DNA of 37,713 nt, from the IMG/VR virus record IMGVR_UViG_3300028590_000052, positions 1-37,713 of that record; one strand, 5' to 3'. Each line of letters opens with the position of its first letter. Within the stretch, counting starts at the first letter, position 1. The stretch is from a virus. The translations under genes were made by a program, and so were the position numbers. Shown piece after piece: positions 1,742 through 15,182 of this stretch. The notes beneath the pieces are model-generated. The model had not been told where the DNA came from, did not search any database, and was given only the letters and a program-made list of their open reading frames with translations.

Positions 1742-2242
1742 GTGGCTAACTTTTACTATCCCATAGCGTTGACTCAGAATGAATCTGAAGGTCAGGTCAT
1801 TGCACCTTTCTCTGATTCGGTTCCTTCACCTAGTGAGATAACAGCTGCCTATGTATTGACCCGCGACATAGGTAACCTCCCAGGTGGCATGTACGTATTG
1901 GATAATGGTACGTGGCGTTTTGTTATACCTTTGGTGAACATAAGCGAATCGATCATCAAGGGCGATGATATAGCAATCTACTTTGATCTGTCCGAAGACA
2001 TAGAGCTTACCGATGGTACAGTGTACAGAAACGGCGTGTTGGCTAACACGCTGACGTTGGAAGCAGGCCCCAATGTATATGGGGTTCGCAGAGTAGGTAG
2101 CGCTGGTGGTGGAGTGTCCGCAGTCAATGGCAAAACAGGATCAGTGAGTATTGCAGCGGGGTCCAATATAACAGTCAACAGCTCAGGATCTTCGATAATC
2201 ATAAGCACACCCTCTGATATAGATGAAGGTACTTACACATGA
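1742..2242 (+). CDS. Small tail-fibre protein
   Basis: I chose GTG at 1742, one base after the endolysin stop and about nine bases after AAGG. A TTG at 1733 in the same frame would add three residues and overlap the endolysin. The 166-aa product is rich in Gly, Ser, Thr and Val. Its segment VSAVNGKTGSVSI followed by a repetitive Ser/Ile strand is a very common phage fibre shaft motif (VNGKTG). It ends in DIDEGTYT, a short terminal motif also found, slightly varied, at the end of two other small proteins here (ending at 5428 and 13026). A virion fibre or fibre adaptor is likely; receptor and partner are unknown. Confidence 0.7.
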   Translation: MANFYYPIALTQNESEGQVIAPFSDSVPSPSEITAAYVLTRDIGNLPGGMYVLDNGTWRFVIPLVNISESIIKGDDIAIYFDLSEDIELTDGTVYRNGVLANTLTLEAGPNVYGVRRVGSAGGGVSAVNGKTGSVSIAAGSNITVNSSGSSIIISTPSDIDEGTYT

Positions 2243-4182
2243 GTCTCCTAAAGAAGTTCATGTCAGCAGGAGGGAACGTACTAAACCGGCTATTCAGGGT
2301 TAATCTGTTCCCTGGGACTGGTAGTTCCCAAACGCTGAAAACAGGGCTGGACTTCGATACCAATGTGGGGTCTTGGCAATCGTCTACAACCTTGGCACCA
2401 AGAACAAGCTCTGCTAGCCCATTTAGTGTGGGCTTCAATCGAGTTGCCTATGGTAGTGGGAAGTTTGTTGCGGTAACCAACGGTAATGTACAGGATTACG
2501 CTGGAGTATCCTCTGACGGTGTAACCTGGAATTCTAATATCATACAGTCAGGTGTAGGATATTGGGCGGACATATGCTTTGGCAACGGTTTGTTTGTTGC
2601 CGTATCTCAAGGGTTGTCTGCTGCTAATCACAATAGAGTTGCTACTTCCCCAGACGGGATTACGTGGACTTTGAGGACCGTAACGAACTCGATATGGAAG
2701 AACGTTGGTTTTGGGAACAATACGTTCTTCATTATCAGTGCAACTATAGCTGCTATATCCACAGATACCATAACTTGGACTCCCGTTACTAGACCAGCAG
2801 TAGGCGTATCCCCTGGTCGTGTTGTATTCGGTAATGGGAAGTTTCTGGTCCTTGCTTTCGGCTCAGGTTTGTTCAATGTAGCCGTTACGTCTAACAATGG
2901 CTCCTCGTGGTCGACAACTTCTTTGACCGGAACGTTCTTTGATGCGGCTTTTGGCTCTGGCTTGTTTATAGTCCTCTATAGAGATGCGAGCAACCGGGGC
3001 GTGTGTAGAACTTCTGCTGACGGTGTTACATGGTCCTCGCCAGTAATCATTTTCAACAATGTAGGTACTACATTCTCGTCGGCTAGCTTGGCCATAGCTT
3101 ATGGCGCAGGTATATTTGTAGCCACCAATAGATCATCGGCTGTAGGTAACGTAATAGAGAGCGCAGTGTCCTACGATGGCGGTGCTACTTGGACCCCCAA
3201 GACGACAGGACTACCCACAGGCTTTCTTTATCCGTCTATGGCGTATGGTGGTGGCCGGTTCGTATTGGTCCAAACGGTAATATCGGGCTCTACTACTGTG
3301 TACACAATGGGTATCCTGCAGGCACTAAAGGGTGGAGGTTTAGTGTGGATAAAAAGCTATACGGCTACCACACCTCATACACTCTGGGATACAGTACGAA
3401 AGGAACTATATGGTAACTACAAGCTGCTGATTGCACCTGCTGCTCAGGACGAAGACAACGATGGTCTTACGGCTTTCAATAATAGCTTTGCCTCTAACGG
3501 ACCCGGTTTCACCTTAGGATCTAGCGTTGATGTGAACGCGGTAGGTGAGGAGTTCGATGCTGAGAGTTTTAAAATAGGCGCCGAGTTCTTCGACATAGTA
3601 CCGTATGAAGGCACCGGTAGTGCTCAGAATTTGGCTCACATATTAGAGTCTTTACCTACGTTTGCTATAGCCAAAGCACTTGAGATGCCAACCAGTCTAT
3701 GTGTATATTTTGGAGCGCTAGGCAGCGCTAACTATCTGACGTTGGATACAGATGATCCAGTGACTAACGATGTTACTGTATGGGGTACTCACACAAGTAC
3801 AACCTTCGGAGTAGGTACCAGCAGTGCGGTCAATGCTGTGGGTGAACCTTACATACTGTATGTATTTTCAGATGGGCCTGACTCTAAATCAGGCTCCTAC
3901 GTCGGCACTGCTGCACAACAGGATATTGACTGTGATTTCTCCATTGGTGCCCGATGGGTTATAATAAAGAGCGCATTAACAGGTCATTGGTACATATTTA
4001 ATAAGAATAGAGGGATGGGAGGTGCAACAACACCTTATCTGTTGGCCGATACTAATGGGGCTCAAGTTGGAGGTGATCCCCTGTTAGCACGAGACAGTGC
4101 GGGTTTCACTTTGCTACAACCGGGAGGTGGTTCACCGATCAATAATAGTGGTGAAACATATTACTTCTTTGCTATTCAATAA
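2239..4182 (+). CDS. Tail fibre: beta-propeller (Asp-box-like repeats) plus C-terminal binding-type domain
   Basis: This 647-aa protein starts at an ATG overlapping the previous stop (ATGA). After a ~45-residue N-terminal segment come six units of ~45-50 residues. Each pairs a 'YGSGKFVAV'-type strand with an Asp-box-like turn (SSDGVTW, SPDGITW, STDTITW, SNNGSSW, SADGVTW, SYDGGATW). Six units fit one six-bladed propeller. From about residue 365 a different domain begins; its W-IKS, VGEEF, W-I-IKSALTGHWYIF and ETYYFFAIQ pieces resemble the lectin-like fibre domain annotated as DUF7483 (from memory). A receptor-binding role at the fibre tip is likely. It lacks the collar halves seen in the three downstream propeller proteins. 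Confidence 0.8.
   Translation: MSLLKKFMSAGGNVLNRLFRVNLFPGTGSSQTLKTGLDFDTNVGSWQSSTTLAPRTSSASPFSVGFNRVAYGSGKFVAVTNGNVQDYAGVSSDGVTWNSNIIQSGVGYWADICFGNGLFVAVSQGLSAANHNRVATSPDGITWTLRTVTNSIWKNVGFGNNTFFIISATIAAISTDTITWTPVTRPAVGVSPGRVVFGNGKFLVLAFGSGLFNVAVTSNNGSSWSTTSLTGTFFDAAFGSGLFIVLYRDASNRGVCRTSADGVTWSSPVIIFNNVGTTFSSASLAIAYGAGIFVATNRSSAVGNVIESAVSYDGGATWTPKTTGLPTGFLYPSMAYGGGRFVLVQTVISGSTTVYTMGILQALKGGGLVWIKSYTATTPHTLWDTVRKELYGNYKLLIAPAAQDEDNDGLTAFNNSFASNGPGFTLGSSVDVNAVGEEFDAESFKIGAEFFDIVPYEGTGSAQNLAHILESLPTFAIAKALEMPTSLCVYFGALGSANYLTLDTDDPVTNDVTVWGTHTSTTFGVGTSSAVNAVGEPYILYVFSDGPDSKSGSYVGTAAQQDIDCDFSIGARWVIIKSALTGHWYIFNKNRGMGGATTPYLLADTNGAQVGGDPLLARDSAGFTLLQPGGGSPINNSGETYYFFAIQ
2505..3200 (+). repeat. 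Six Asp-box-like coding repeats
   Basis: Six coding units of ~140 bases inside the 647-aa fibre gene carry S-x-D/N-G-x-T/S-W turns. They are more diverged at DNA level than the arrays at 7330-12260. The repetition is explained by a beta-propeller fold. Confidence 0.75.
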
Positions 4183-4192
4183 GGGGACAACC

Positions 4193-4408
4193 ATGGACTT
4201 CGCAGATATAAGCTCTGACTTGAACGATTTAGAGAACGAGCAGTTAGTGAATCAAGCCCGGGCTAAAGCAATGATCAAAAAATTTCCATACAACGGTCAT
4301 TGTTATAATTGTGAGGACCCTTTAGAGGAACCGAAGGTATTCTGCGATAGTCTTTGTAGAGATGAATACGAGGAGATGAAAGTTAAACTAGCACGGAGAT
4401 GTGAATGA
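4193..4408 (+). CDS. Small C4 zinc-finger protein
   Basis: The start is ATG 4193, ten bases after an AAGGGG ribosome-binding site. An in-frame ATG further upstream at 4097 would lie inside the previous gene and is unlikely. The 71-aa product has an acidic, helical N-terminal half and then a four-cysteine module, C-x2-C (CYNC, residues ~42-45) and C-x3-C (CDSLC, ~57-61), followed by RDEYEEM. This is like the DksA/TraR-type single zinc fingers that phages often carry. It may bind a nucleic acid or protein partner such as RNA polymerase; the sequence does not decide. It is odd in sitting alone between virion genes. Its stop overlaps the next ATG (ATGA). Confidence 0.72.
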   Translation: MDFADISSDLNDLENEQLVNQARAKAMIKKFPYNGHCYNCEDPLEEPKVFCDSLCRDEYEEMKVKLARRCE

Positions 4409-5100
4409 TTACCAGCATACCTGCCCCACAGATTTCATTCGGCATAAAGCTTCAGGTTACACATGGGCGTAACCAAATTCAAATGGCTTCCGGTTCTTAT
4501 AGCGCACTATATATGGGCGCTGATCCTCGGATTGCTGAATTTTATGTCGAACTCAAGCCTGGAGAGTCTTACGTCTCCAATACATCGGAAGCCGTGGCCA
4601 ACCTTGTGGTATCTACTTCGAGTCCCTTGGCTTTCGTTGGTCAGGCTATTAGCGGTGAAATAAATGCCGTAGTATCTCGAATGTTATGTCTAGACAATCC
4701 TCTGACGGGCTTCACTTTGACCAACAATAGCTCAAGCACAGTTGCCAGGGTGTACATCAACACAATGAGCACGAAGATACCTCAAGCTACCCTGTATTGG
4801 GGCCCAGCAGTAGAACCCTCTGTGTATGACGCAGACTTTATACGGAGCCTCAGCAACGGCAGTAACGGCAATAAAGACCAGACCATTACAGTGAATGCGG
4901 GAGCAGGGGAGAATATTTACTACTGCTACCCCGTGTCATTGGGGGCCTCGCAGTTCTCGGTCAATGGTTTCATTGGTGGCATAGTTCTGGTGGCCACCGT
5001 AAACATGACTATGGACGATAATAGCGTGGTACCTTTCTACGTGTATGGAAGTGAAAACTCTGGGCTAGGGTTGACCACCGTAACAGTATTAGGAGCGTGA
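4405..5100 (+). CDS. Putative virion protein, function unknown
   Basis: I do not recognise this 231-aa protein. It is beta-rich, with many Ser, Thr, Val and Gly, few charges and no membrane segment. Phrases such as ELKPGESYVSN, LTGFTLTNNSSSTVARVYINT and NIYYCYPVSLG look like jelly-roll or Ig-like structural domains of phage virions. It lies inside the fibre cluster with translational coupling on both sides (ATGA upstream, one-base gap downstream), so a fibre accessory or virion decoration role is the best guess. Confidence 0.55.
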   Translation: MITSIPAPQISFGIKLQVTHGRNQIQMASGSYSALYMGADPRIAEFYVELKPGESYVSNTSEAVANLVVSTSSPLAFVGQAISGEINAVVSRMLCLDNPLTGFTLTNNSSSTVARVYINTMSTKIPQATLYWGPAVEPSVYDADFIRSLSNGSNGNKDQTITVNAGAGENIYYCYPVSLGASQFSVNGFIGGIVLVATVNMTMDDNSVVPFYVYGSENSGLGLTTVTVLGA

Positions 5101-5101
5101 G

Positions 5102-5428
5102 ATGCCCATCTTCCTTATAACCCATATAGCACCAAAGAACAATCAGGATTTCCCTACCCACTTCTCGACCTACGGTAAAGGTGGGTGGCATGAAGCAGCT
5201 ACGTTGGTGGCCCGTAATGCGTTGCCAGCAGCCCGAAGAACGGCAGGCATGGCTTGTCGTGTTTTAGAGAACGATACTACCTACATACTACAAGCAGACC
5301 TCACAACGTGGATTGCTGATACAACATCAGGTATACCAGAGGCCCCTATAGACGGTAAACCTTATGTTCGAATGGACGGTGACTGGGGCGATCTTGATGA
5401 TCTTCTAGACGAAGGAACATATGCTTAG
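5102..5428 (+). CDS. Small tail-fibre associated protein
   Basis: This 108-aa protein starts at ATG 5102 with a good AGGAG site just upstream. The C-terminal third contains PIDGKPYVRMDGDW, a motif family (PIDGK-x-YVR-x-DG-x-W) very common in tailed-phage fibre and baseplate-attached proteins. It ends in DDLLDEGTYA, which matches the terminal motif of the proteins ending at 2242 and 13026. The N-terminal ~60 residues are basic and unrecognised. It is probably a fibre component or connector and is the last gene before a 98-base non-coding gap. Confidence 0.6.
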   Translation: MPIFLITHIAPKNNQDFPTHFSTYGKGGWHEAATLVARNALPAARRTAGMACRVLENDTTYILQADLTTWIADTTSGIPEAPIDGKPYVRMDGDWGDLDDLLDEGTYA

Positions 5429-5526
5429 GCAAAATTTTATTGATGACAAAGGACTTACATATGTAGCTCTTTACATAAGGCTCTATATGTGCCTTGCCGA
5501 ATTTTTAATTTTGAGAGGCTTGCAAA
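5429..5526. other. AT-rich intergenic gap inside fibre cluster
   Basis: This is the first real gap on the + strand. It holds a 10-bp palindrome (TACATATGTA, about 5456-5465), a weak hairpin (AAGGC, 9-base loop, GCCTT) just downstream, and a T-rich stretch after it. A weak terminator for the upstream genes and/or a promoter for the adaptor gene at 5527 is plausible, but I see no convincing -35/-10 pair. The end carries GAGAGG, the ribosome-binding site of the next gene. Confidence 0.35.
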
Positions 5527-5919
5527 ATGGCACTAACTGGAAGAAAGCTTCAACACGGTAGGACCAGCGTATCAGGGGAAGCTCCAGATGCTGGTCAGAT
5601 GCTGGATGGTCAGATATTCATTAACACCGCTGATGAGGTCTTGTACATCAAGAATAGCAGCGGTGTAATTGTAGGCTTTCAGCGCAATGGCGGTGGAGGC
5701 GGTGTACCAGACACTATAGAACAGACCATCACAAGTGCTGGTGCAAATACGATTAACGTACCCAATCCTATGAACTCGGATGGTCATAGTCTATTTATAA
5801 ATGGATTAGCTCAGTCGTCTGCATCCTATAGTTTGTCAGGTCAGACGGTAATTCTGCCCTCCACATTGAGCTTAATGGTGGGCGATGTTGTAATCTTCAA
5901 TTACTTTAGGAGTGAATAA
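5527..5919 (+). CDS. Tail-fibre adaptor with MAL[TS]G N-terminal module
   Basis: This 130-aa protein has two parts. Residues 1-49 form an attachment-type module also found in the protein starting at 12524 (MALTGRKLQHG against MALSGKKVIHG, GQIFINTADEVLYIKNSSG against GQLFINSADELLFIKNSSG). Phage fibres often begin this way. A Gly5 hinge (~54-58) then leads to a small domain with LFINGLAQ and VGDVVIFNYF, which resembles the 'LNG..Q..Y.ISG..I' modules of fibre proteins. A similar module ends the next protein. It probably links fibres to the tail or each other. Start is well supported by GAGAGG upstream. Confidence 0.72.
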   Translation: MALTGRKLQHGRTSVSGEAPDAGQMLDGQIFINTADEVLYIKNSSGVIVGFQRNGGGGGVPDTIEQTITSAGANTINVPNPMNSDGHSLFINGLAQSSASYSLSGQTVILPSTLSLMVGDVVIFNYFRSE

Positions 5920-5921
5920 AC

Positions 5922-6962
5922 ATGGCACAAACAAAAATCCGCGGTAATACCCAGATACTTGACGACTCAATTGAGTTGGCGCAGTTAGCAAGTGATTTGG
6001 TCCTGCCGTTAGCTAACGTACAAGATGGGACATCTTTGCTGAAGGCTGACGGTTCTGTTCCCTTGACAAGCGATTGGGACACCGATGGTTTTAAAGTCAC
6101 GGGCCTGCCGCCGGCTACTGCTCCTAGTGATGCGCTGAATCTAGAAAGTGGTCAGGACTTGGTCAACCAAGTTTCTTCCAAGCCATCTGCTAAGGTTGTC
6201 GCTACTACCAATCTGACTTTGGCCAATGAGCAAACAGTTAACGGCGTTGCTGTAGCTGATGGTGATTATGTTTTGGCAACAGGTCAAACCGATGCTTCTG
6301 AAAACGGCCCCTGGGTTGTTGTGGATGGTGGTGCGTGGACACGTCCAGCATTCTGGGCTACAGCTTCGATTCAACGTGCAGGCGCAACTGTAGTTGTTAC
6401 GGAAGGTACTGGCGCGCCGACTCAGTGGGTATGTACCACTACTGGCACAATCACCGTGGACACGACCGACACTGCTTGGTCTGAGATCGAAAGCGGTGGT
6501 GGGACTAGCTATACCGCTGGTGACGGTTTGGACCTCACTGGTACTGAATTCAGCGTTGTAGCCGATGGCCCCGGCCTGACTGTTGGCCCTGACGGCGTAA
6601 AGATCACTGATGGTGCTGGTGGTCAAGTAATGCTTGCTACCAGCACTGGCGAAGCAGCATTCACTACTATCACTGGTGATATCGCCGTTGATGACGCTGG
6701 TGTTGCCTCGATTAATACCACTGCCGGTACTGGCTTCCTGAAATACGATGCATTCGTTGCCAATGAAACACCCAGCGGTACTGTGAATGGTGTCAATACC
6801 ACGTTCACGTTGGCCAATGCACCCTTCGGTTTGATGCTGTACCGCAATGGTCAATTGCTGGAGCCTGGTGTTGGTAACGACTACACGATATCCGGTACTA
6901 CAATCACAACCCTAGTTATTCTCGAAACTGGCGAGAAACTGCGGGCCTACTACTTCAAGTGA
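5922..6962 (+). CDS. Tail-fibre shaft protein
   Basis: This 346-aa protein begins MAQTKIRG-x-TQI with DDSIELAQLA, a frequent fibre N-terminus, preceded by AGGAG and two bases after the previous stop. The middle (about residues 88-190) carries ATGQTDASENGPWVV and similar repeats known from fibre shafts of many phages. Glycine-rich strands follow (DGLDLTGTEFSV, GPGLTVGPDGVKI). The last ~70 residues form the FTLANAPFGLMLYRNGQLLEPG type module, related to the end of the preceding protein. Codon choice looks different from its neighbours, with more C-ending codons and more GC (by eye), which may reflect recent acquisition of the gene. Confidence 0.8.
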   Translation: MAQTKIRGNTQILDDSIELAQLASDLVLPLANVQDGTSLLKADGSVPLTSDWDTDGFKVTGLPPATAPSDALNLESGQDLVNQVSSKPSAKVVATTNLTLANEQTVNGVAVADGDYVLATGQTDASENGPWVVVDGGAWTRPAFWATASIQRAGATVVVTEGTGAPTQWVCTTTGTITVDTTDTAWSEIESGGGTSYTAGDGLDLTGTEFSVVADGPGLTVGPDGVKITDGAGGQVMLATSTGEAAFTTITGDIAVDDAGVASINTTAGTGFLKYDAFVANETPSGTVNGVNTTFTLANAPFGLMLYRNGQLLEPGVGNDYTISGTTITTLVILETGEKLRAYYFK

Positions 6963-6971
6963 TGACGTAAA

Positions 6972-8237
6972 ATGCTTACACAAGGGACTGGTAGTCAAGT
7001 AAAAGACGAGGCGATTACCCGGGATTTGGTGGATGCCACTACCCCGGGTAGTGCTATGATTAGACGTTTAATAGCCGGCACAGGAATCCAACTCAATAGC
7101 ATGGGTGTGGATTCCGGGACCGGTGATGTAAACATTAGCGTGGCAAACAGTGGTGGTAATGTTGGTCAATTAGTTGAAGCCCGGTCCGGCGTGTTGGGTC
7201 CCTCATTCTTAGAGTGTGATGGATCAGTTAAAGAGGTGGCCGACTATCCACAGTTGGCCACCCTTTTTCCCACTACTGTATTTCAGCCAACAGCTGGTTC
7301 TATGCTGGGTACCACACAGAACTGGTCTAATGTTGCTTGGAACGGTACGGTTTTCTGTGCCATCAATGGAGCAAACAACACGGCGGCTACATCCCCGGAT
7401 GGTATTACGTGGACCACCCGAACAATGCCAACAACCGCAAACCCTTGGAATGCAATTACGTCTAATGGGTCTATATTTTGTGCGGTGGTAACAGGTGGTA
7501 ACCTAGTAGCCACGTCGTCTGATGGAATTACGTGGAGTACAGGTACCATGCCGGTGTCTTCCGGCTGGTTTGATATAGCCTGGAACGGCACTGTGTTTTG
7601 TGCCATTTCGTCTGCTAACGGCACTGTTGCTGCAACCTCCACCAATGGTCTTAGTTGGACAGCTAGAACACTGCCGACTACCCAACAATGGCGCGCTATT
7701 GCTTGGAACGGCACTGTGTTTTGTGCGATATCTGGAACATCAGCAGGTAGCAATGTTGCTGCAACCTCTACTGACGGTATTACGTGGACCGCTAGAACCA
7801 TGCCTGCTGCTTTGTTGTGGTTAGACGTTGTTTGGGATGGTACTGTATTCTGTGCGGTAGCGAGTGGTACAAGCGGCTCCGGTACGGCTATAGCAGCCAC
7901 GTCCCCTGACGGTATTACGTGGACTGCTAGAACACTGCCCATTTTCACAACATGGGCAACAATAGCTGGCAACTCTAATCTTCTGTGGGCCTTATCTAGT
8001 AGTTCGAGAACAAGTGCTATAAGTAGGGATCATGGTGCTACTTGGACCTCATATGATATCAATACAGCTAATGCATGGACTTCAGTCGGAGCAATATCTG
8101 GAGGAACCACATTTTGCGCTGTAACTAGTAGCACAACAGCTCAAGTAATCAGAGGAATCGAAGATAACTCAAAGTTCTACCTGCCTAATATACCTCAGCA
8201 GGCAGCCTATTATCCAGTTCTAATACAGGCATTATGA
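6972..8237 (+). CDS. Collar/propeller tail-fibre paralog A (421 aa, 6 repeats)
   Basis: First of three tandem paralogs. Residues ~1-58 are a shared N-terminal domain with the signature A-[ML]-IRRLIAG-x-GI and DSGTGDV. The front half of a phage Tail_Collar-like domain follows (GQLVEARSG..., LECDGS, DYPQL). A ~300-residue block of Asp-box-like repeats comes next (SPDGITW, SSDGITW, STNGLSW, STDGITW, SPDGITW, SRDHGATW, alternating with WNGTVFCAI strands). The C-terminal 24 residues restore the collar tail (DNSKFYLPNIP...). The propeller thus appears inserted into a collar fold. It is likely a host-recognition fibre protein. Six repeats suit a single propeller. No strong ribosome-binding site is visible upstream, so expression may depend on the previous gene. 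Confidence 0.85.
   Translation: MLTQGTGSQVKDEAITRDLVDATTPGSAMIRRLIAGTGIQLNSMGVDSGTGDVNISVANSGGNVGQLVEARSGVLGPSFLECDGSVKEVADYPQLATLFPTTVFQPTAGSMLGTTQNWSNVAWNGTVFCAINGANNTAATSPDGITWTTRTMPTTANPWNAITSNGSIFCAVVTGGNLVATSSDGITWSTGTMPVSSGWFDIAWNGTVFCAISSANGTVAATSTNGLSWTARTLPTTQQWRAIAWNGTVFCAISGTSAGSNVAATSTDGITWTARTMPAALLWLDVVWDGTVFCAVASGTSGSGTAIAATSPDGITWTARTLPIFTTWATIAGNSNLLWALSSSSRTSAISRDHGATWTSYDINTANAWTSVGAISGGTTFCAVTSSTTAQVIRGIEDNSKFYLPNIPQQAAYYPVLIQAL
7330..8060 (+). repeat. Propeller-repeat array, paralog A
   Basis: Six coding repeats of about 110-130 bases. Two pieces are strongly conserved in DNA: the TGGAACGG-C/T-ACTGT-TTTGTG block and the GATGGTATTACGTGG block. Confidence 0.8.
7899..7939 (+). 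repeat. 41-bp block identical to 10888-10928
   Basis: The 41 bases spanning the Asp box and the following TARTLP strand are identical, letter for letter, to a block in paralog C. This suggests recent duplication or gene conversion between paralogs. Confidence 0.85.
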
Positions 8238-10333
8238 ATACTATACTGAATGATGAGCAATTCAAAGACGAGGGTATAGAGCGGTCTAACTTGAATATGT
8301 CCACACCAGGACAAGCAGTAATTAGACGAGTTATGGCCGGACCTGGGATAGCATTAACCAGTACAGGAGCTGATAGTGGAACTGGCGATGTAACGGTATG
8401 GGGGATGAGTTCTACGGTAGCTGTGGGCCAGATATGTATGGCTGCCGAATTAGATCCCCTCAAGTATTTGGCCTGCGATGGCTCTACCAAACTTAGGTCG
8501 ACTTACCCTCTCTTGTCTGCCATTACACCAGAGAATTCTTACGTAAATCAGACATCAACGATTGATTCTACGATTCCTCTGACCTTAAACTATTCGGCTG
8601 CGGTAAGTAATAGCAGCATTATTTTGGGGTTCACAAGTGGTGGTAATACGTATGCCACTAGCTCTGATCACGGCTCTACGTGGACATCCAGAACAGCGCC
8701 TTGGTCAGGTAGTATTCAAGCCGCTGCTTGGAACGGTACCGTATTTTTGGTCATTCTTCAGAATAGCAGCGCTGCTTATACAAGCCCAGATGGTATTACC
8801 TGGACGTCCAGAACGATGCCCTCTTCTCAAAACTGGGCATCAGTAGCCTGGAACGGCACTGTCTTTTGTGCAGTAGCTGGTTATTCAGGAGCTTCTTCAG
8901 TTGCTGCAACATCTCCAGATGGAGCTACGTGGACAGCTAGAACCATATCTTCATCAGCAACTTGGTTTAGAATAGCTTGGAACGGAACTGTGTTCTGTGC
9001 CATAGCCAATGCCAGCAGCATTGCAGCTACGTCTCCCGATGGAGCTACTTGGACCACACAGGCTATGCCGGTAAGTACGAACTGGCAAGGTCTTACGTGG
9101 ACTGGTAGTTTATTCTGTGCTGTAGGTTCAAACTCGTCTATCGCTGCCACGTCTCCAAATGGATCAACGTGGACCCAGAGAACGATGCCAGGATCCTCAA
9201 CGTGGACCAATCTCGCTTCTAACGGTAGTGGGCTTGTAGTTGCTACGGCTGCTACTACTGCTAGTGTAGGTGCCTACAGTCTTGATCATGGCGCTACGTG
9301 GACTGCGTCGGTTATGTCAAGCCGTGCTCCATTTAGAGCCCTGACATGGGACGGAACTGTATTCTGTGCGTTCTCTACCTCACCCTATACAGCCGGTACG
9401 TCTACTGATGGTATTAATTGGACCAATAGAGAGATTGCTGCCTCTGGAATACTTTCGTGGAAACCTATAGTTGGCACTGGTACTATCTTCTGTGCTCTGT
9501 CACCTAATTCTACGCGAGCAGCAACATCCACGGATGGTATTACGTGGACCCAACAAATAATGCCTTGGACGTCTAACTGGGCTGCTATTACATACGGCGG
9601 CGGTTTGTTCTGCGCTGTCGGCGGTAGCACAGACGTTATTACAAGTCCTGATGGTATTACGTGGACAGGAAGAACTCTGGGTGGGAGCGCTACGTGGACT
9701 GATATAGTGTGGAACGGCTCTATATTCTGCATAATAGGTAACACCTCCTCAGCTTATACGTCATCTGATGGCGCTACGTGGACAGTTCGTAGTATGGGAG
9801 CCTCTAACTGGGCTGCTATAGCCTGGAATGGTACTGTGTTCTGTGCAGTAGGTGGTGCAGCAACCTCCTCTAACGTAGCAGCCACGTCCCCTGACGGTAT
9901 TACGTGGACACTTCAAACCATGCCGATATCACTATTTTGGAGAGACATAGCCTGGAATGGCAGTGTGTTCTGTGCCATAGCTGCAGGTAATGTAGCAGCT
10001 ATCTCGACTAACGGTGCTAACTGGACCACCGTTACCCTACCTGATAGCGTTGACTGGCAAGCTATCACATGGAATGGCAGTGTGTTCTGTATAGCGGCTG
10101 CAAATGGAACGCGATATGCTACGAGTGCTGATGGTATAAACTGGAAGCCTAGGCTTGTAAGTGCTGCCACCCATAGCAGTATAGGTGTGGGCTCCAATGG
10201 CAGTGCCTTATGTATAGTAGGGGACATGGGTGGTGTCTCTATAGCTATAAATGAAGATGCCACAAGCTTCGATGTACCCTATATCATACCAAGAGACCTT
10301 AATTTTCCACCTCAAGTACGATGGGATGAGTAA
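8234..10333 (+). CDS. Collar/propeller tail-fibre paralog B (699 aa, 13 repeats)
   Basis: This is the middle paralog, starting at an ATG overlapping the previous stop (ATGA). The N-terminal domain (PGQAVIRRVMAGPGI, GADSGTGDVTV) and collar front (GQICMAAE..., LACDGSTKLRSTYPLL) match paralogs A and C. About 13 Asp-box-like turns follow (SSDHGSTW, SPDGITW, SPDGATW twice, SPNGSTW, SLDHGATW, STDGINW, STDGITW, SPDGITW, SSDGATW, SPDGITW, STNGANW, SADGINW). That is enough for two six- or seven-bladed propellers. The end (DATSFDVPYI and the last ~18 residues) matches the collar back half in diverged form. It is probably a trimeric host-binding fibre. The next ATG overlaps its stop (TAATG). Confidence 0.85.
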   Translation: MNTILNDEQFKDEGIERSNLNMSTPGQAVIRRVMAGPGIALTSTGADSGTGDVTVWGMSSTVAVGQICMAAELDPLKYLACDGSTKLRSTYPLLSAITPENSYVNQTSTIDSTIPLTLNYSAAVSNSSIILGFTSGGNTYATSSDHGSTWTSRTAPWSGSIQAAAWNGTVFLVILQNSSAAYTSPDGITWTSRTMPSSQNWASVAWNGTVFCAVAGYSGASSVAATSPDGATWTARTISSSATWFRIAWNGTVFCAIANASSIAATSPDGATWTTQAMPVSTNWQGLTWTGSLFCAVGSNSSIAATSPNGSTWTQRTMPGSSTWTNLASNGSGLVVATAATTASVGAYSLDHGATWTASVMSSRAPFRALTWDGTVFCAFSTSPYTAGTSTDGINWTNREIAASGILSWKPIVGTGTIFCALSPNSTRAATSTDGITWTQQIMPWTSNWAAITYGGGLFCAVGGSTDVITSPDGITWTGRTLGGSATWTDIVWNGSIFCIIGNTSSAYTSSDGATWTVRSMGASNWAAIAWNGTVFCAVGGAATSSNVAATSPDGITWTLQTMPISLFWRDIAWNGSVFCAIAAGNVAAISTNGANWTTVTLPDSVDWQAITWNGSVFCIAAANGTRYATSADGINWKPRLVSAATHSSIGVGSNGSALCIVGDMGGVSIAINEDATSFDVPYIIPRDLNFPPQVRWDE
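8655..10150 (+). repeat. Propeller-repeat array, paralog B
   Basis: About 13 coding repeats averaging ~115 bases. Several carry near-identical DNA around GATGGTATTACGTGGAC. The stretch near 9887-9919 is almost identical to that at 7894-7926 in paralog A. Confidence 0.8.
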
Positions 10334-12447
10334 TGAAAACAGAATATACTGGTCAACAGTTATCGGTACTGCCCAAAAGCAAATTCAATGTCTCAACTGA
10401 AGGTAAGTCTGTAATTCGTAGGCTAATAGCAGGTGACGGAGTTGAGATTACGAGTAGTACTGGTGCTGACAGCGGTACTGGTGACGTAACTTTAGCTTTG
10501 ACAGGCACTACAGAGGGTATGCCTGTCGGTATCATTATCGACGCACCTAGCGGCGTACTGACTCCAGAAGAAGACTATCTGGTTTGTGATGGATCCGCTC
10601 AATTAAGATCAGCCTATCCAGACTTGTCGGATGTAATAACAGAAGATAGTCTGACACCTACCTCTATACCTATGGCTGGTACACAGAGTGCCGTGGCTTT
10701 CTCGTCTATAGCTGCTAGTGGTTCTATGTTTGCTGCTGTGTGCGTGGCTGCACCTTCACTGATAGCATATTCCACTAATGGAACCAGTTGGACTGTAATA
10801 CGGCCACCTGTTGATGTTCCATTTCGGTGTATCACATGGAACGGTAGTGTGTTTTGTGCAGTGCCAAATAGTGGCAATCAATGTATTACGTCCCCTGACG
10901 GTATTACGTGGACTGCTAGAACACTGCCAGCAGCCGGCAACTGGACTGTAGTTGGTTCAAACAATTCAGGTAGATTAATCGCTTTAGTATCTGCCAGTAC
11001 TATTGGCGCAACAAGTGATGACAACGGTGCTACCTGGACTCAACAGGTTATTATATCTGGTTCGTGGAACAATGTAGCGTGGGCTACGTCTCTCGGTTTG
11101 TTTTGTGTTGTATCGAGCGTCGCTACCAATACTTACATGACGAGTCCGGATGGCATTACGTGGACATCCAGAACTTTTGCAACGAGCGCCACACGTCCAG
11201 GAATAGCTTGGAACGGTACTGTATTTGCTGTATCTAGTACAGCAACCGCATCGTTTCTTTATTCTAGTGATGGCGTAAACTGGGGTGCGGCAACTTCATC
11301 TGTTGGTGCCGCAGGTGGATCCAATACTATCATATGGAACGGCTCTATATTCGTATGTGTGGCTGGTACTACGTTGGTACTTACGTCTCCTGACGGAATT
11401 ACGTGGTCTACGGCCAGTATGCCATCATCGGCACAGTGGCAAACAGTAGCCTGGAACGGCACGGTGTTCTACTGTAAGGCCTACAATACCACTGCTGGAG
11501 CTACGTCCACGAATGGAACCACCTGGACAGCGGCGAATTTCGATATAAAGATTGGTCGTTGGGGATCAGTGGCCTGGAATGGGTCTCTATTTTGTGCGGT
11601 TCAGACCTCTGTATCTGTAGGTACCACCAATGCGTATGCTACTAGTCCGGATGGTATTACGTGGACTCAGAGAACGCTTCCATCAGCAGCAAGCTTGGCA
11701 AAGATCATATGGAACGGCACTATATTCTGTGCTATAGGTGGAGGCGCTGTATCTAATGCAGTGTTCACGTCCACTAACGGTACTTCGTGGTCATCTGGTT
11801 CTCTAGGTGTATCTCAAGCCTGGTCCAGTGTTGCCTACGGTAATGGTATATTCGTTGCCGTAGCTCTGACATCGACAACTAACTATGCCACGTCCACTAA
11901 CGGCACATCCTGGACAGGTAGAACTCTACCAGTCATCGCCGTATGTAATGCCATAGAATGGAACGGCAGTGTGTTCTGTATTGTAGGTAACAATATATGT
12001 TTCACGTCCACAAATGGAATCGCTTGGACTCAGAGAACAATTCCAACAGGTAGCTGGGTGGGTCTAACTTGGAATGGTACTGTTTTTGTGGCTATTAAAA
12101 CAGGTAATACGTGTGCTGTGTCTCAAGACGGTACAGTTTGGGATATTATCACATTGCCCATCAGTTCCACTTGGACTTCAATAGCTTGGGACGGCTCTCG
12201 ATTCTGGATGTTTGGTAACAACGATGTGGCAGCTGTGTCTGCTGATGGTAGAACCTGGACAACCGTAAGCTTTACCAATGAGAGTAATACTTGGTCTTGT
12301 GCAGCTTATGGTGGTGGCGTAATGCCAGTTCTGGCTTCCAACTACACACAGACTGCCAAACTGCTTGAACCAGATGCAACAAAGTTCAACTTACCCCTGC
12401 TAGGTCCAATAGCCAGTGGTATGGTGCCCTACATCAAGGTGCAATAG
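10333..12447 (+). CDS. Collar/propeller tail-fibre paralog C (704 aa, 13 repeats)
   Basis: Third paralog. The N-terminal domain (GKSVIRRLIAGDGVEI, GADSGTGDVTLAL) leads into the clearest collar front of the set (MPVGIIIDAPSGVL, LVCDGSAQLRSAYPDL). Thirteen Asp-box-like turns follow, including SPDGITW four times and STNG-[TI]-x-W five times. The collar back half closes the protein (DATKFNLPLLGPI and a YIKV end). Collar domains normally have these two halves separated by only a few tens of residues; here ~560 residues lie between. The product should be a large receptor-binding fibre. A perfect palindromic hairpin follows two bases after the stop. Confidence 0.86.
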   Translation: MKTEYTGQQLSVLPKSKFNVSTEGKSVIRRLIAGDGVEITSSTGADSGTGDVTLALTGTTEGMPVGIIIDAPSGVLTPEEDYLVCDGSAQLRSAYPDLSDVITEDSLTPTSIPMAGTQSAVAFSSIAASGSMFAAVCVAAPSLIAYSTNGTSWTVIRPPVDVPFRCITWNGSVFCAVPNSGNQCITSPDGITWTARTLPAAGNWTVVGSNNSGRLIALVSASTIGATSDDNGATWTQQVIISGSWNNVAWATSLGLFCVVSSVATNTYMTSPDGITWTSRTFATSATRPGIAWNGTVFAVSSTATASFLYSSDGVNWGAATSSVGAAGGSNTIIWNGSIFVCVAGTTLVLTSPDGITWSTASMPSSAQWQTVAWNGTVFYCKAYNTTAGATSTNGTTWTAANFDIKIGRWGSVAWNGSLFCAVQTSVSVGTTNAYATSPDGITWTQRTLPSAASLAKIIWNGTIFCAIGGGAVSNAVFTSTNGTSWSSGSLGVSQAWSSVAYGNGIFVAVALTSTTNYATSTNGTSWTGRTLPVIAVCNAIEWNGSVFCIVGNNICFTSTNGIAWTQRTIPTGSWVGLTWNGTVFVAIKTGNTCAVSQDGTVWDIITLPISSTWTSIAWDGSRFWMFGNNDVAAVSADGRTWTTVSFTNESNTWSCAAYGGGVMPVLASNYTQTAKLLEPDATKFNLPLLGPIASGMVPYIKVQ
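10775..12260 (+). repeat. Propeller-repeat array, paralog C
   Basis: Thirteen coding repeats, with DNA blocks shared with paralogs A and B. 10888-10928 is identical to 7899-7939. Confidence 0.8.
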
Positions 12448-12523: not shown

Positions 12524-13026
12524 ATGGCTTTAAGTGGAAAGAAGGTAATACATGGTAATTCAATAGTGCCTGGGAGAGTGCCCTTATCTGAACAAATAGG
12601 AAATGGGCAACTATTTATCAACTCGGCAGACGAGCTTTTATTCATAAAGAATAGTAGTGGGGACGTAGTACAGCCCAAACCTCGATCCATGCCTTTGACT
12701 GTAACTGGGGACGTGTCTGGTAGCGGTACAACCTCGGCCGTAAACGTTACGCTACCAAGCATAGTCAGTGCGGGTACATATAAATCTGTGACTGTTAATG
12801 CCAAGGGCCCGTAACCTTCGAGGACGTAGTAACTCTAGATTACACGCCCACCCAAGATACTCATGGGGCCAATAAGCTTTATGTGGATGACGCTATTGCA
12901 GCTACCGTAGTTCCAGTTGGGGCCAATACTATGTACATGGGACCTGCATCAGGCGGAGACGCGGATCCTACATTCCGGGCTTTAGAGTTAGCGGACTTAC
13001 CAGACATCAACGAAGGGACGTTCTAA
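12524..13026 (+). CDS. Fibre adaptor in two frames (possible -1 frameshift or disrupted gene)
   Basis: Frame one, 12524-12814, encodes 96 aa. Residues 1-49 match the adaptor at 5527 (MALSGKKVIHG..., INSADELLFIKNSSG), followed by the fibre phrase LTVTGDVSGSGT and TYKSVTVNAKGP, then TAA. Homologous fibres normally continue after NAKG. The continuation is in the -1 frame: VTFEDVVTLDYTP, GANKLYVDDAI, PTFRALELADLPDINEGTF, stop at 13024-13026. The total would be 167 aa. The switch coincides with G-GGC-CCG at 12805-12811. AGAGGA gives a good ribosome-binding site. Either a programmed -1 frameshift makes short and long forms, or one base was lost (real mutation or sequencing error). The end motif DINEGTF matches two other fibre proteins here. 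Confidence 0.75.
12805..12811 (+). promoter_or_regulatory. Candidate -1 slippery heptamer G GGC CCG
   Basis: In the zero frame the codons are AAG GGC CCG TAA. Bases 12805-12811 fit the X-XXY-YYZ rule exactly, with the stop codon immediately after. Slipping back one base leads straight into the open frame that runs to 13026. No strong downstream stem or pseudoknot was seen by eye, only a small CCT-TCG-AGG hairpin, so efficiency could be low. Confidence 0.45.
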
Positions 13027-13068: not shown

Positions 13069-13569
13069 CTATGCAGTCATGGAACCTCTAAGGATACCAT
13101 CAAATACTATAGGCAAGGGCTTCGCGGCTAGCACTTCATTGGTCTCCGCTAACCATATCCTAGTACGCGCATCAAGATCGATATCGTGCCCCAGCGTTAT
13201 ATGCGCGTTATATTCTGGGAATCCATGCTTCAATCCCTGGGCGGCCAAATCGTTATGAACGGCCTTCAGGTCTGGACTATCAACTGCGGCTACCACTATG
13301 TTACGCCCTTTGTGGTCTACCCAGTGGTTAATCTGACCTATAGTACCCACACATACTTGATCTGGCATAGGCTTTACATCGGGTGCCAACTGCTTACTGT
13401 GTATTACAGTGCAGTGGAAGTCAGCACTATTCTTAGTCTTGAATGGGGCCCCTTCGATTAAACGTTGGAGCTCCAAAACAGACCTCTCGTTTGGGTATAC
13501 CCATACATATAGACCACTGCCTTCTGCGGCTATCTCTGAGTATAAGATCTCTGCGTTTATCCTCTTCAT
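13069..13569 (-). CDS. 2H phosphoesterase, Acb1-like (anti-CBASS candidate)
   Basis: The start is ATG 13569, overlapping the previous stop (TAATG) with GGTGGAG upstream; an in-frame GTG at 13575 is less likely. The 166-aa protein has two H-x-T motifs, HCTV at residues 52-55 and HITL at 123-126. These define the 2H phosphoesterase superfamily of LigT/2'-5' RNA ligase-like proteins and cyclic-nucleotide phosphodiesterases. The layout fits phage Acb1 (T4 gene 57B), which destroys CBASS cyclic nucleotide messengers: SGLYVWV, an LI helix, FHCTVIHSK, VDSPDLKAVH, then PEYNAHITLGHDID. Size and spacing of about 70 residues between the histidines also fit, as far as I recall that family. RNA repair or tRNA-fragment chemistry remains possible. 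It is the last gene of the tail operon, a usual spot for accessory genes. Confidence 0.78.
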   Translation of the reverse strand: MKRINAEILYSEIAAEGSGLYVWVYPNERSVLELQRLIEGAPFKTKNSADFHCTVIHSKQLAPDVKPMPDQVCVGTIGQINHWVDHKGRNIVVAAVDSPDLKAVHNDLAAQGLKHGFPEYNAHITLGHDIDLDARTRIWLAETNEVLAAKPLPIVFDGILRGSMTA

Positions 13570-15182
13570 TACCACTCCACCCTTAGGAATCCACCGGCAC
13601 CGTCGCCACCATTCCCAGCTGGACCACTATTAACATCAAAGTATATCCCAGCGCCTCCACCGCCTGACGAGCCGAATCCAGTAGCATCTCGACCATCAAG
13701 AACTGAGGCATCAGATTCAGTAGCTGCACGACCTGCACCACCACCGATACCGTAGGGTCCGCTAACCCCTGGTCCACCAGAACCACCAAGATTACCGTCG
13801 TTCCCAAAATTACCATTGGGTAACCCACCAGGGCCACCAGCTGTAGATCCAGAAGGACCTTTGCCGCCTTCGCCTGCCGCACCACCTATCAATGTTACGG
13901 CCCCAAACGTAGTATTGCCGCCCGCTGTACCGTCATTACCGGAAACGTTTACTAATGCACCGGTACCACCTACCCCGCCAGCGCCGATAATACCTGTTAT
14001 AACTTGACCAGGTGTCACTGATATAGCCATAGAGTCAATTGATTCCCCTGCCGCACCTGAGCCTCCACCTCCACCACCTATATAGTCATATGGGGTAGGT
14101 CCAGACGGGTAGCCACCACCTGCGCCACCGCCACCGCCACCCGCCGCACAACCACTAAGGTAGAGTGTAGTTACGTTGTCAGGCACAGTGAAAGCGAATG
14201 GCCCTGGTGTCGAGAAGTTAGCGACCCGTCCTTGGATAGCCTGGTTAGCAATGGTAGCGTTAAGGGTCACCTGGTTGCCAAACAGTATGGCAGAGCCGTT
14301 CATGTCACCTGTCAGAGTCAGCGTAGTGATCTGCGAGTTCACATACAGTAGGGCAGTAGATCCTGTTAATGGGGCATCAAACAAAGGCTCTGGGTTGAAC
14401 GTCAGCCTATAGTTGCTGCTAACCGACGTTATGTTATTCACCGACCTTATGTAGCCATCTTCTAGGGCCACAACGAATTTGCCACTTAATGCAGACAGAA
14501 CCGTGGGATCCAAATCAGACTGTGCAATATCAACGTAATCAACGGTAGCCCCAGTAAGGGTTACTTGTTTGACCAACGTGTAGTTGGTACCTATTGTCCA
14601 ATGATCTGAATCAGCACGGTGGATAAACGATGAATTGCCATTAGAATCAAGCTCGCCTACCAATATGGTTGGTATCTCTGGATTAGCTGACAACGAGGGC
14701 GGATATACATCGGACCACAGGTCTACTTCCCATACAGCAGGAGGCTCTGTGTCCATCGTATTACCAACCTTGAAGATAGCCACCGACTGTTGGAGTTTCA
14801 ATAAGCAGTTGAAAGTATAGGTCGATAAGACGTTGGTCCCCAAGCTAGAATACTTGGTTTCCATATGATCGAAGACGGCTTTAGCAAACATCGTGCCATC
14901 TTCAAGGTACAGGGCAACCTCTCCGAATGTGAAGGGCCCGGCATCTGCAGGAATCTTACACACGATGTTGATCGTATTGTCCCCTGCATACCTATATGAC
15001 GAAGGAGCACCCTCATATAGAAGATTACCATTGAGCCCCGTGTCTGTAGGTAGCGGTGTATAACCCCAAGCAGACCCTATGCGGAAATCAGTTATATGTA
15101 TAAAAGGACCTACCGGAGTGGCTACGGATGCAGCAGCTAGACCAGCATCCGTAACAATAAACAATGGAGTTGAATCAGACAT
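13569..15182 (-). CDS. Glycine-rich tail fibre / adhesin
   Basis: This 537-aa protein has three zones. Residues ~1-140 match the N-terminal domain of P2 gpH-type fibres (ITDFRIGSAWGYTPL, CKIPADAGPFTFGEVALYLEDG, then a K-x-SS-LGTN segment), which attaches the fibre to the baseplate. Residues ~140-330 are a variable beta-rich shaft. From about 340 to the end there is a glycine-rich domain with runs of five or six Gly, GGVGGTG, GGPGGLPNG and a final GDGAGGFLRVEW. Such domains form polyglycine sandwiches in the adhesins of T-even-like phages (gp38 type) and determine host range. The gene lies downstream of the baseplate genes, as gpH does after gpJ and gpI in P2. Confidence 0.87.
   Translation of the reverse strand: MSDSTPLFIVTDAGLAAASVATPVGPFIHITDFRIGSAWGYTPLPTDTGLNGNLLYEGAPSSYRYAGDNTINIVCKIPADAGPFTFGEVALYLEDGTMFAKAVFDHMETKYSSLGTNVLSTYTFNCLLKLQQSVAIFKVGNTMDTEPPAVWEVDLWSDVYPPSLSANPEIPTILVGELDSNGNSSFIHRADSDHWTIGTNYTLVKQVTLTGATVDYVDIAQSDLDPTVLSALSGKFVVALEDGYIRSVNNITSVSSNYRLTFNPEPLFDAPLTGSTALLYVNSQITTLTLTGDMNGSAILFGNQVTLNATIANQAIQGRVANFSTPGPFAFTVPDNVTTLYLSGCAAGGGGGGAGGGYPSGPTPYDYIGGGGGGSGAAGESIDSMAISVTPGQVITGIIGAGGVGGTGALVNVSGNDGTAGGNTTFGAVTLIGGAAGEGGKGPSGSTAGGPGGLPNGNFGNDGNLGGSGGPGVSGPYGIGGGAGRAATESDASVLDGRDATGFGSSGGGGAGIYFDVNSGPAGNGGDGAGGFLRVEW

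Follow-up and report, generated by a model that had tools for sequence, protein, structure and literature searches.

What kind of protein is encoded by three adjacent genes from a tailed, uncultured phage whose products each pass from a short N-terminal module into the front of a tail-collar-type domain, continue into propeller repeats and end on what resembles the back of that same domain? The genes occupy positions 6,972 to 12,447 of IMG/VR record IMGVR_UViG_3300028590_000052, which was analysed over its full length of 37,713 bases (the window). The sequence-only reading of this region had described three tandem paralogs with a collar front, 6, 13 and 13 Asp-box-like repeats and a collar back, and the open reading frames (ORFs), motifs and counts were as described. 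The three proteins have a common order, comprising an N-terminal module of ~60 amino acids (aa), a collar-type front (CDGS...YPxL), propeller repeats and a C-terminal F-x-[LV]-P:

6972..8237, + strand: protein 1, 421 aa; putative docking module, collar front, one predicted 7-bladed propeller, collar back
8234..10333, + strand: protein 2, 699 aa; layout as protein 1, with two putative propellers (14 blade units)
10333..12447, + strand: protein 3, 704 aa; layout as protein 1, with two putative propellers (14 blade units)

We consider it likely, with a probability of about 0.7, that these proteins are virion adhesins which are made jointly, docked by the N-terminal module, and hold propeller heads in a loop of the collar. 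The layout, the repeat counts and the recurrence of the arrangement in other phages can be read from the sequences. The docking site and trimerisation are proposed, the latter by analogy with T4 gp12, and receptor binding is suggested by the gene context and the accompanying modules.

The fronts of all three proteins contain G...YLxCDGS...YPxL (CDGSVKEVADYPQL in protein 1, CDGSTKLRSTYPLL in protein 2 and CDGSAQLRSAYPDL in protein 3) and match overlapping positions of the Pfam Collar profile (PF07484), within 2-35 of 57. The whole proteins gave E values of 0.026, 0.023 and 0.020 for proteins 1, 2 and 3 (14.9-15.3 bits), over the front part only, and the fronts alone scored 18.3-20.0 bits. A six-frame search of the whole 37.7-kb record for Collar at E <= 0.1 returned these three places only. 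The tails carry FYLPNI (protein 1), FDVPYI (protein 2) and FNLPLL (protein 3), and each protein ends with F-x-[LV]-P followed by 16 or 17 residues. The putative collar halves, with the AlphaFold2 (AF2) predicted local distance difference test (pLDDT) values and the site-matrix ranks described below, are as follows:

7152..7271, + strand: collar front of protein 1, residues 61-100; Pfam Collar positions 14-35, E 0.0023 alone; AF2 pLDDT 87-88
8411..8530, + strand: collar front of protein 2; Pfam Collar positions 2-33, E 0.00091 alone
10501..10635, + strand: collar front of protein 3; Pfam Collar positions 10-35, E 0.00068 alone
8163..8234, + strand: collar back of protein 1, DNSKFYLPNIPQQAAYYPVLIQAL; site matrix rank 1/409; AF2 pLDDT 82-89
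10256..10330, + strand: collar back of protein 2, DATSFDVPYIIPRDLNFPPQVRWDE; site matrix rank 1/687
12373..12444, + strand: collar back of protein 3, DATKFNLPLLGPIASGMVPYIKVQ; site matrix rank 1/692

The nested layout was found beyond the window in 11 proteins from nine records, namely L101, L171, L150, L151, L137, L175 (two proteins), L204 (two proteins) and the cultured Caulobacter phages KSC (OQ135104) and Percy (KT381879); L175 and L204 are one lineage. The front exceeds the Pfam cut-off of 24 in L101 (25.0 bits) and L171 (30.2 bits). Ahead of the nested cassette, Mtd_N was identified above its cut-off in L171 and L151, and Phage_T7_tail above its cut-off in KSC and Percy. The N-termini of the other nested proteins are unnamed, and there is almost none in L175 and L204. 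The L150 protein (positions 2647-8217 of its contig) is 1857 aa long with a propeller insert of 1703 aa between the collar halves, and an ordinary collar fibre gene is present in the same contig.

Ordinary IMG/VR collars were analysed in 61 ORFs taken from 80 loci. In 55 of the 61, a stretch of 13-20 aa separates the YxALF segment from the F-x-VP behind it; 54 of these 55 have a stop codon, with 93-260 aa from F-x-VP to the end, and 41 of the 54 end in [FY]IIKT. In proteins 1, 2 and 3, F-x-[LV]-P instead lies 306, 584 and 586 aa past the front. Across the 14 nested proteins, the gap between the halves is 291-1703 aa and the back strand starts 18-24 residues from the end (the insert anchors were picked by eye, and the back strand of L101 and L137 is not a clean F-x-LP). 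The inserts measure 291-320 aa in seven proteins and 584-611 aa in four, followed by 724, 1012 and 1703 aa, so that most are near multiples of 300 aa. The nested proteins end in YPVLIQAL, PQVRWDE, PYIKVQ, YYIKIADPE, YIRAT and similar strings, which to the eye look like the [FY]-I-I-K type of strand. As the gap and tail lengths are reversed between ordinary and nested collars, the large insert appears to have changed place within the collar fold, lying after F-x-VP ordinarily and before it in the nested form. The earlier statement that the halves of ordinary collars are nearly contiguous thus holds for this loop and does not hold for the fold as a whole, in which a large insert follows F-x-VP. 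In six of the 61 ordinary collar ORFs, the 60 residues next to the front contain no F-x-[VLI]-P[DNE], and some of these ORFs may hold other inserts in this loop.

The association between fronts and tails was analysed in 80 propeller ORFs, all of them in records to which the Pfam Collar search had been applied, a tail being F-x-[LVI]-P within 50 residues of the end. The tail was present in 6/8 propeller ORFs with a Pfam Collar match compared with 4/72 without (p = 1.8e-5), and the four exceptions are the L175 and L204 proteins, in which fronts are visible by eye. Similarly, an earlier version with fronts assigned by motif gave 5/6 compared with 3/79 (p = 1e-5); paralogues reduce the independence of both sets of counts. 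The tail motif was observed 16 times in 822 other ORFs. A site matrix for which only ordinary collars were used (35 distinct F-x-VP segments) placed the C-terminal F-x-LP of proteins 1, 2 and 3 at rank 1 among 409, 687 and 692 positions, with 1.9, 6.7 and 10.7 bits, respectively. Rank 1 fell at the back in 7/14 nested proteins compared with 6/75 non-nested propeller proteins.

Structure prediction had been proposed as a check on whether the two halves would fall into separate, unrelated domains. The second AF2 model of protein 1, made from an alignment with nine proteins bearing both halves (361-residue single chain, predicted template modelling score 0.82), gave a pLDDT of 87-88 for residues 61-100, 61 for 101-110, 65 for 391-400, 82 for 401-410, 89 for 411-420 and 88 for residue 421. 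Both halves were thus predicted at 82-89 in one chain and the separation was not seen, the pLDDT of the halves being model confidence and not a reading of contact between them. Fold searches against solved structures list propellers and are therefore no test of the collar part either way. When solved structures were searched with a profile of 11 nested fronts, none matched at E <= 1. In BFVD, the match at rank 31 was named 'Phage tail collar domain containing protein' with 421 columns aligned. Giant-virus proteins with collagen repeats (Hokovirus, Klosneuvirus) were also among the BFVD matches of the protein 1 model. The relatives L101 and L171, in which a front above the Pfam cut-off precedes propellers and a tail of similar type, the site matrix, the tail association and the protein 1 model together support the nesting of the propeller in the collar, as the sequence-only reading had proposed.

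The Asp-box-like motifs number 6, 13 and 13 in proteins 1, 2 and 3, counted by eye because the strict pattern misses boxes with an extra residue. A blade hidden Markov model (HMM), for which 13 units from the window served as the training set, found 7, 14 and 14 units. In each protein the final unit breaks off ahead of its Asp box and is weak (independent E values, i-E, of 0.001, 0.0082 and 1.0), so that the 14th unit of protein 3, taken alone, falls short of significance. On 600 shuffled proteins the blade HMM gave no domains at i-E <= 0.01. As 6 and 13 boxes both correspond to 7n-1, one, two and two 7-bladed propellers would be present, each array closed by an N-terminal strand, and the earlier suggestion of one and two propellers agrees with the blade counts:

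7281..8162, + strand: predicted 7-bladed propeller of protein 1, residues ~104-397; blade HMM 7 units; VIA-align Z 33.3 to 2z2o
8531..10255, + strand: propeller insert of protein 2, 13 Asp boxes; motif count and blade HMM
10636..12372, + strand: propeller insert of protein 3, 13 Asp boxes; motif count and blade HMM

DUF6242 was found in all three proteins, above the cut-off in proteins 2 and 3 and below it in protein 1. The fold was predicted for protein 1 only, and its AF2 propeller had a pLDDT of 77-98 by tens of residues, mostly >90. VIA-align of the second model with virginiamycin B lyase 2z2o gave a Z of 33.3 and a root-mean-square deviation of 2.2 over 280 residues (model residues 42-337), and the YCF48 propeller 5ojr was among the solved matches in Foldseek. 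The closest solved folds are thus 7-bladed propellers, and a 7-bladed propeller fold for protein 1 is supported by the prediction. The YCF48/PSII_BNR and DUF6242 Asp-box propellers resemble the window proteins in repeat family and fold. To our knowledge, YCF48 carries no collar halves. It differs also in function, being described in Pfam as an assembly factor of photosystem II. Across 513 blade units there is almost no variation at the fold-holding positions 24, 26, 27 and 30 (S, D, G, W), positions 16-20 are variable, and 37% of the units carry an insertion ahead of position 17; the loop at positions 16-20 is a fair candidate for a binding surface. The PHROGs scan of the three proteins returned no family with a named function, and the NCBIfam scan returned none above the cut-off.

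The N-terminal domain had been described as common to the three proteins, and it proved to be widespread. The module and collar front together show 41-46% identity to protein 1 across the three, and the module is present in 45 IMG/VR loci, two of which are copies of this phage. Of the 46 ORFs that an iterated profile of the module identified in the loci gathered, 38 come from loci other than the window's own. Each of these 38 has 0 or 1 strict Asp boxes, and other types of C-terminal part therefore follow the module. The two elements in question are:

6972..7151, + strand: putative N-terminal docking module of protein 1, residues 1-60; sequence comparison, module in 43 further IMG/VR loci
5922..6962, + strand: 346-aa virion protein, possible partner for the N-terminal module; PHROG 2647 'head decoration', E 2.3e-31

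A homologue of the 346-aa protein lies upstream in 30 of the 38 module ORFs, the nearest 3-362 bases away; of the eight ORFs without one, two have <300 bases of upstream sequence, and some of the loci are near-copies. This recurrence suggests that the 346-aa protein is the docking partner of the module. All three proteins may dock at one same site, as had been supposed.

The tail tube, baseplate, portal and terminase genes of the record are on the minus strand, and the plus strand carries an endolysin and adhesin-like genes. The presence of baseplate and tail-tube genes in the same record was counted in favour of the adhesin reading. The ORFs of proteins 1 and 2 overlap by ATGA and those of proteins 2 and 3 by TAATG, and the three are therefore probably co-translated. 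Two other IMG/VR contigs hold copies of proteins 1 and 3 at 100% identity, with ORFs of the same three lengths.

The collar-type domain makes trimers in T4-like fibres (T4 gp12). We propose that the adhesins would be produced together from their overlapping genes and that the N-terminal module would dock each protein on the particle, possibly via the upstream 346-aa protein. At the tip, the loop that joins the YPxL helix of the collar-type domain to its F-x-LP strand would be opened for one or two complete seven-bladed propellers, and the domain would be closed by F-x-LP and one final strand at the C-terminus. With the collar closed in this way, the propeller arrays would be anchored at both ends and the heads would stand out in threes round the collar axis. 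In the propellers the Asp-box frame is conserved and the loops on it vary; the propeller faces may bind cell-surface glycans or proteins, and the heads would be free to differ while the dock and collar remain alike.

Several observations weigh against this interpretation. Searching each half separately, which the sequence-only reading had advised, gave Collar matches for the fronts and no Collar match in Pfam for the backs, and the window fronts, at 14.9-20.0 bits, are under the gathering score of 24. In 7 of the 14 nested proteins the site matrix preferred another site to the back, which fell furthest in L101 (rank 20) and Percy (rank 52), the scores of protein 1 (1.9) and L175a (-2.6) are below the best controls (3.8), and 4 of the 75 control proteins outscore protein 1 in their tails. 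At E <= 1, hmmscan gave no Collar for L151, L175, L204, L137 and KSC; L151 and L137 had weak matches in the per-record search (12.9 and 12.3 bits), and L175, L204 and KSC were assigned by eye. The collar parts of the first AF2 model had a pLDDT of 41-75, and the rise in the second model may be partly due to the alignment chosen. Furthermore, the best PHROG of the upstream 346-aa protein is one of head decoration, not tail. F-x-LP might then be merely the closing strand of the last blade, with the CDGS segment unrelated or decayed and no nested collar, and both the absence of an Asp box from the last blade, where F-x-LP stands at the expected place, and the lack of a Pfam Collar match for the back halves would fit. 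However, 68 of the 72 propeller proteins without a Pfam front are also without the F-x-[LVI]-P tail, the other four having fronts by eye; the ordinary-collar matrix selects F-x-LP in all three proteins; and an N-terminal strand appears to be available for closing, at protein 1 residues 104-108, inside the region aligned to solved propellers. We therefore regard a plain closing strand as unlikely.

The location and activity of the proteins could also be other than proposed. They may decorate the capsid or neck and serve there to attach the particle to cells or mucus, rather than being parts of the tail or baseplate, and the head-decoration label of the 346-aa gene, which lies ahead of the module in 30/38, keeps a capsid location in view. 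The same protein also matches a tail-fibre PHROG, nested relatives have the tail-type N-termini Mtd_N and Phage_T7_tail, and PHROG labels are annotations, not tests; on balance a capsid or neck position seems somewhat improbable. That the propellers are enzymes (glycan lyases, sialidases or depolymerases) instead of serving for binding alone is quite improbable. Virginiamycin B lyase 2z2o is among the best solved matches and protein 2 has a weak NCBIfam glycosylhydrolase match (30.8 bits, cut-off 175), whereas the sequence identity to lyases is 10-12%, variation along the blade is lowest at the Asp-box residues S, D, G and W, and no enzyme model reached a curated cut-off in the Pfam and NCBIfam scans.

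The reading as virion adhesins with nested heads can be set beside known systems. The core fold of T4 gp10, gp11 and gp12 is small, with a helix and short sheets, and carries large loops inserted in various regions, and genes 10, 11 and 12 are sequential on one mRNA, according to the available text of PMC3004832. The likeness of the window proteins to gp12 lies in a small core carrying large inserted loops, and the three window genes overlap end to end, to be compared with T4 10/11/12; the difference is that a propeller is not mentioned for gp12 in that text. The receptor-binding protein of Staphylococcus phage phi11 is, in the available part of PMC4901313, a virion adhesin that forms trimers and is presumed to bind glycans through the single propeller of each chain. 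This propeller differs in having five blades and in its place, which is between a coiled-coil stem and a tower and not inside a collar. gp131C of phiKZ (4GBF; PMC4901313, PMC6115969) is similar in having a seven-bladed propeller, which lies at the edge of the baseplate in a myophage, and differs, by the descriptions in the available text of these two papers alone, in that collar halves are not mentioned. The tail fibres of KSC and Percy share with the window proteins a collar front, a propeller insert of ~600 aa and, where the fibre ends, a collar back of 19 aa; they differ in a T7-type N-terminus and stalk, a single gene, and an annotation that says merely tail fiber protein. Within the text reached by the literature search, no description was found of a propeller inside a collar domain, nor of an insert at this collar site. 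Collar-tipped adhesins and propeller adhesins are both known, and what is new is the nesting of the second in the first, which several phages have at this loop behind differing N-terminal modules.

Between KSC and Percy, the identity is 71% for residues 1-230, 44% for the stalk, 60% for the collar front, 30% for the propellers and 41% for the collar back; the inserted part has diverged more than the collar front. Among the matches listed for the KSC fibre, the Caulobacter phages ERS, BL198, BL199, DCM, Cd1 and Quill_5.2 match within its first 339 residues only, and no collar or propeller was seen in the fibre tips of ERS, BL199 and Quill_5.2. Percy infects CBR1 and TK0059 and KSC does not, as stated in the available text of PMC11053796. 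A tie between this difference in host range and the heads is only suggestive, because many other genes differ too. The propeller relatives in Stenotrophomonas RAS14, Limnohabitans DC31 and Synechococcus B23 showed no visible collar front or F-x-LP tail. A collar match in Synechococcus phage B23 looks like an ordinary fibre tip and was rejected as a nested case.

A careful first tree comprised 95 propeller segments with the nested label on 16 rows (L101 was under the length cut-off, and KSC and Percy were not included). The label needs 11 changes, of which at least 7 are forced by well-supported branches; the shuffled mean was 15.1 and 1/500 shuffles was as low. A second, quick tree of 97 segments, with L101 and KSC (the Percy segment was too short), gave 10 changes, 2 forced by well-supported branches, a shuffled mean of 16.7 and 0/500 as low. 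The low shuffle counts indicate that nesting is clustered and thus that inheritance plays a part. The nested segments do not group as one on either tree, and propeller exchange or repeated entry fits the trees. A single origin for all nested propellers is not favoured, on weak evidence (11 and 10 changes, 2 forced in the second tree), both trees being weakened by long branches and blade exchange.

These observations allow a tentative proposal, to which we give somewhat less than even odds: the collar would be a general socket with two alternative insertion loops, one for the usual insert after F-x-LP and the other, used here, for about one to five whole propellers before it, which entered or were exchanged more than once and independently of the docking module. 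A second insertion loop is thereby suggested for collar domains. If this is true, phages could change the head without touching the dock or the trimeriser, and a phage of this kind would show heads of different size in one particle. The layout also gives a search rule for adhesins, namely a collar front, at least one propeller and then F-x-LP ~20 residues from the end; standard profiles tend to miss such proteins because each collar half alone scores too low. KSC and Percy are cultured phages whose laboratory host is harmless, and in them the setting of host range by inserted heads is directly testable.

Elsewhere, at L208:3509-6112 (a contig labelled as an Oxalobacteraceae metagenome-assembled genome), a related propeller interrupts a different, tail-like protein, and the propeller may therefore be a general insertable module. 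Three further genes of the window were noted:

2239..4182, + strand: further diverged propeller, with 7 blade-profile matches in residues 69-356, fused to DUF7483 (92.9 bits); no collar halves were seen in it
12524..12814, + strand: 96-aa ORF related to a 130-aa ORF at 5527-5919 (E 2.7e-13); it looks like a short or truncated tail-fibre paralogue
13069..13575, - strand: Acb1-type anti-CBASS (cyclic oligonucleotide-based antiphage signalling system) 2H phosphoesterase gene; Pfam Acb1 68.2 bits against a cut-off of 27

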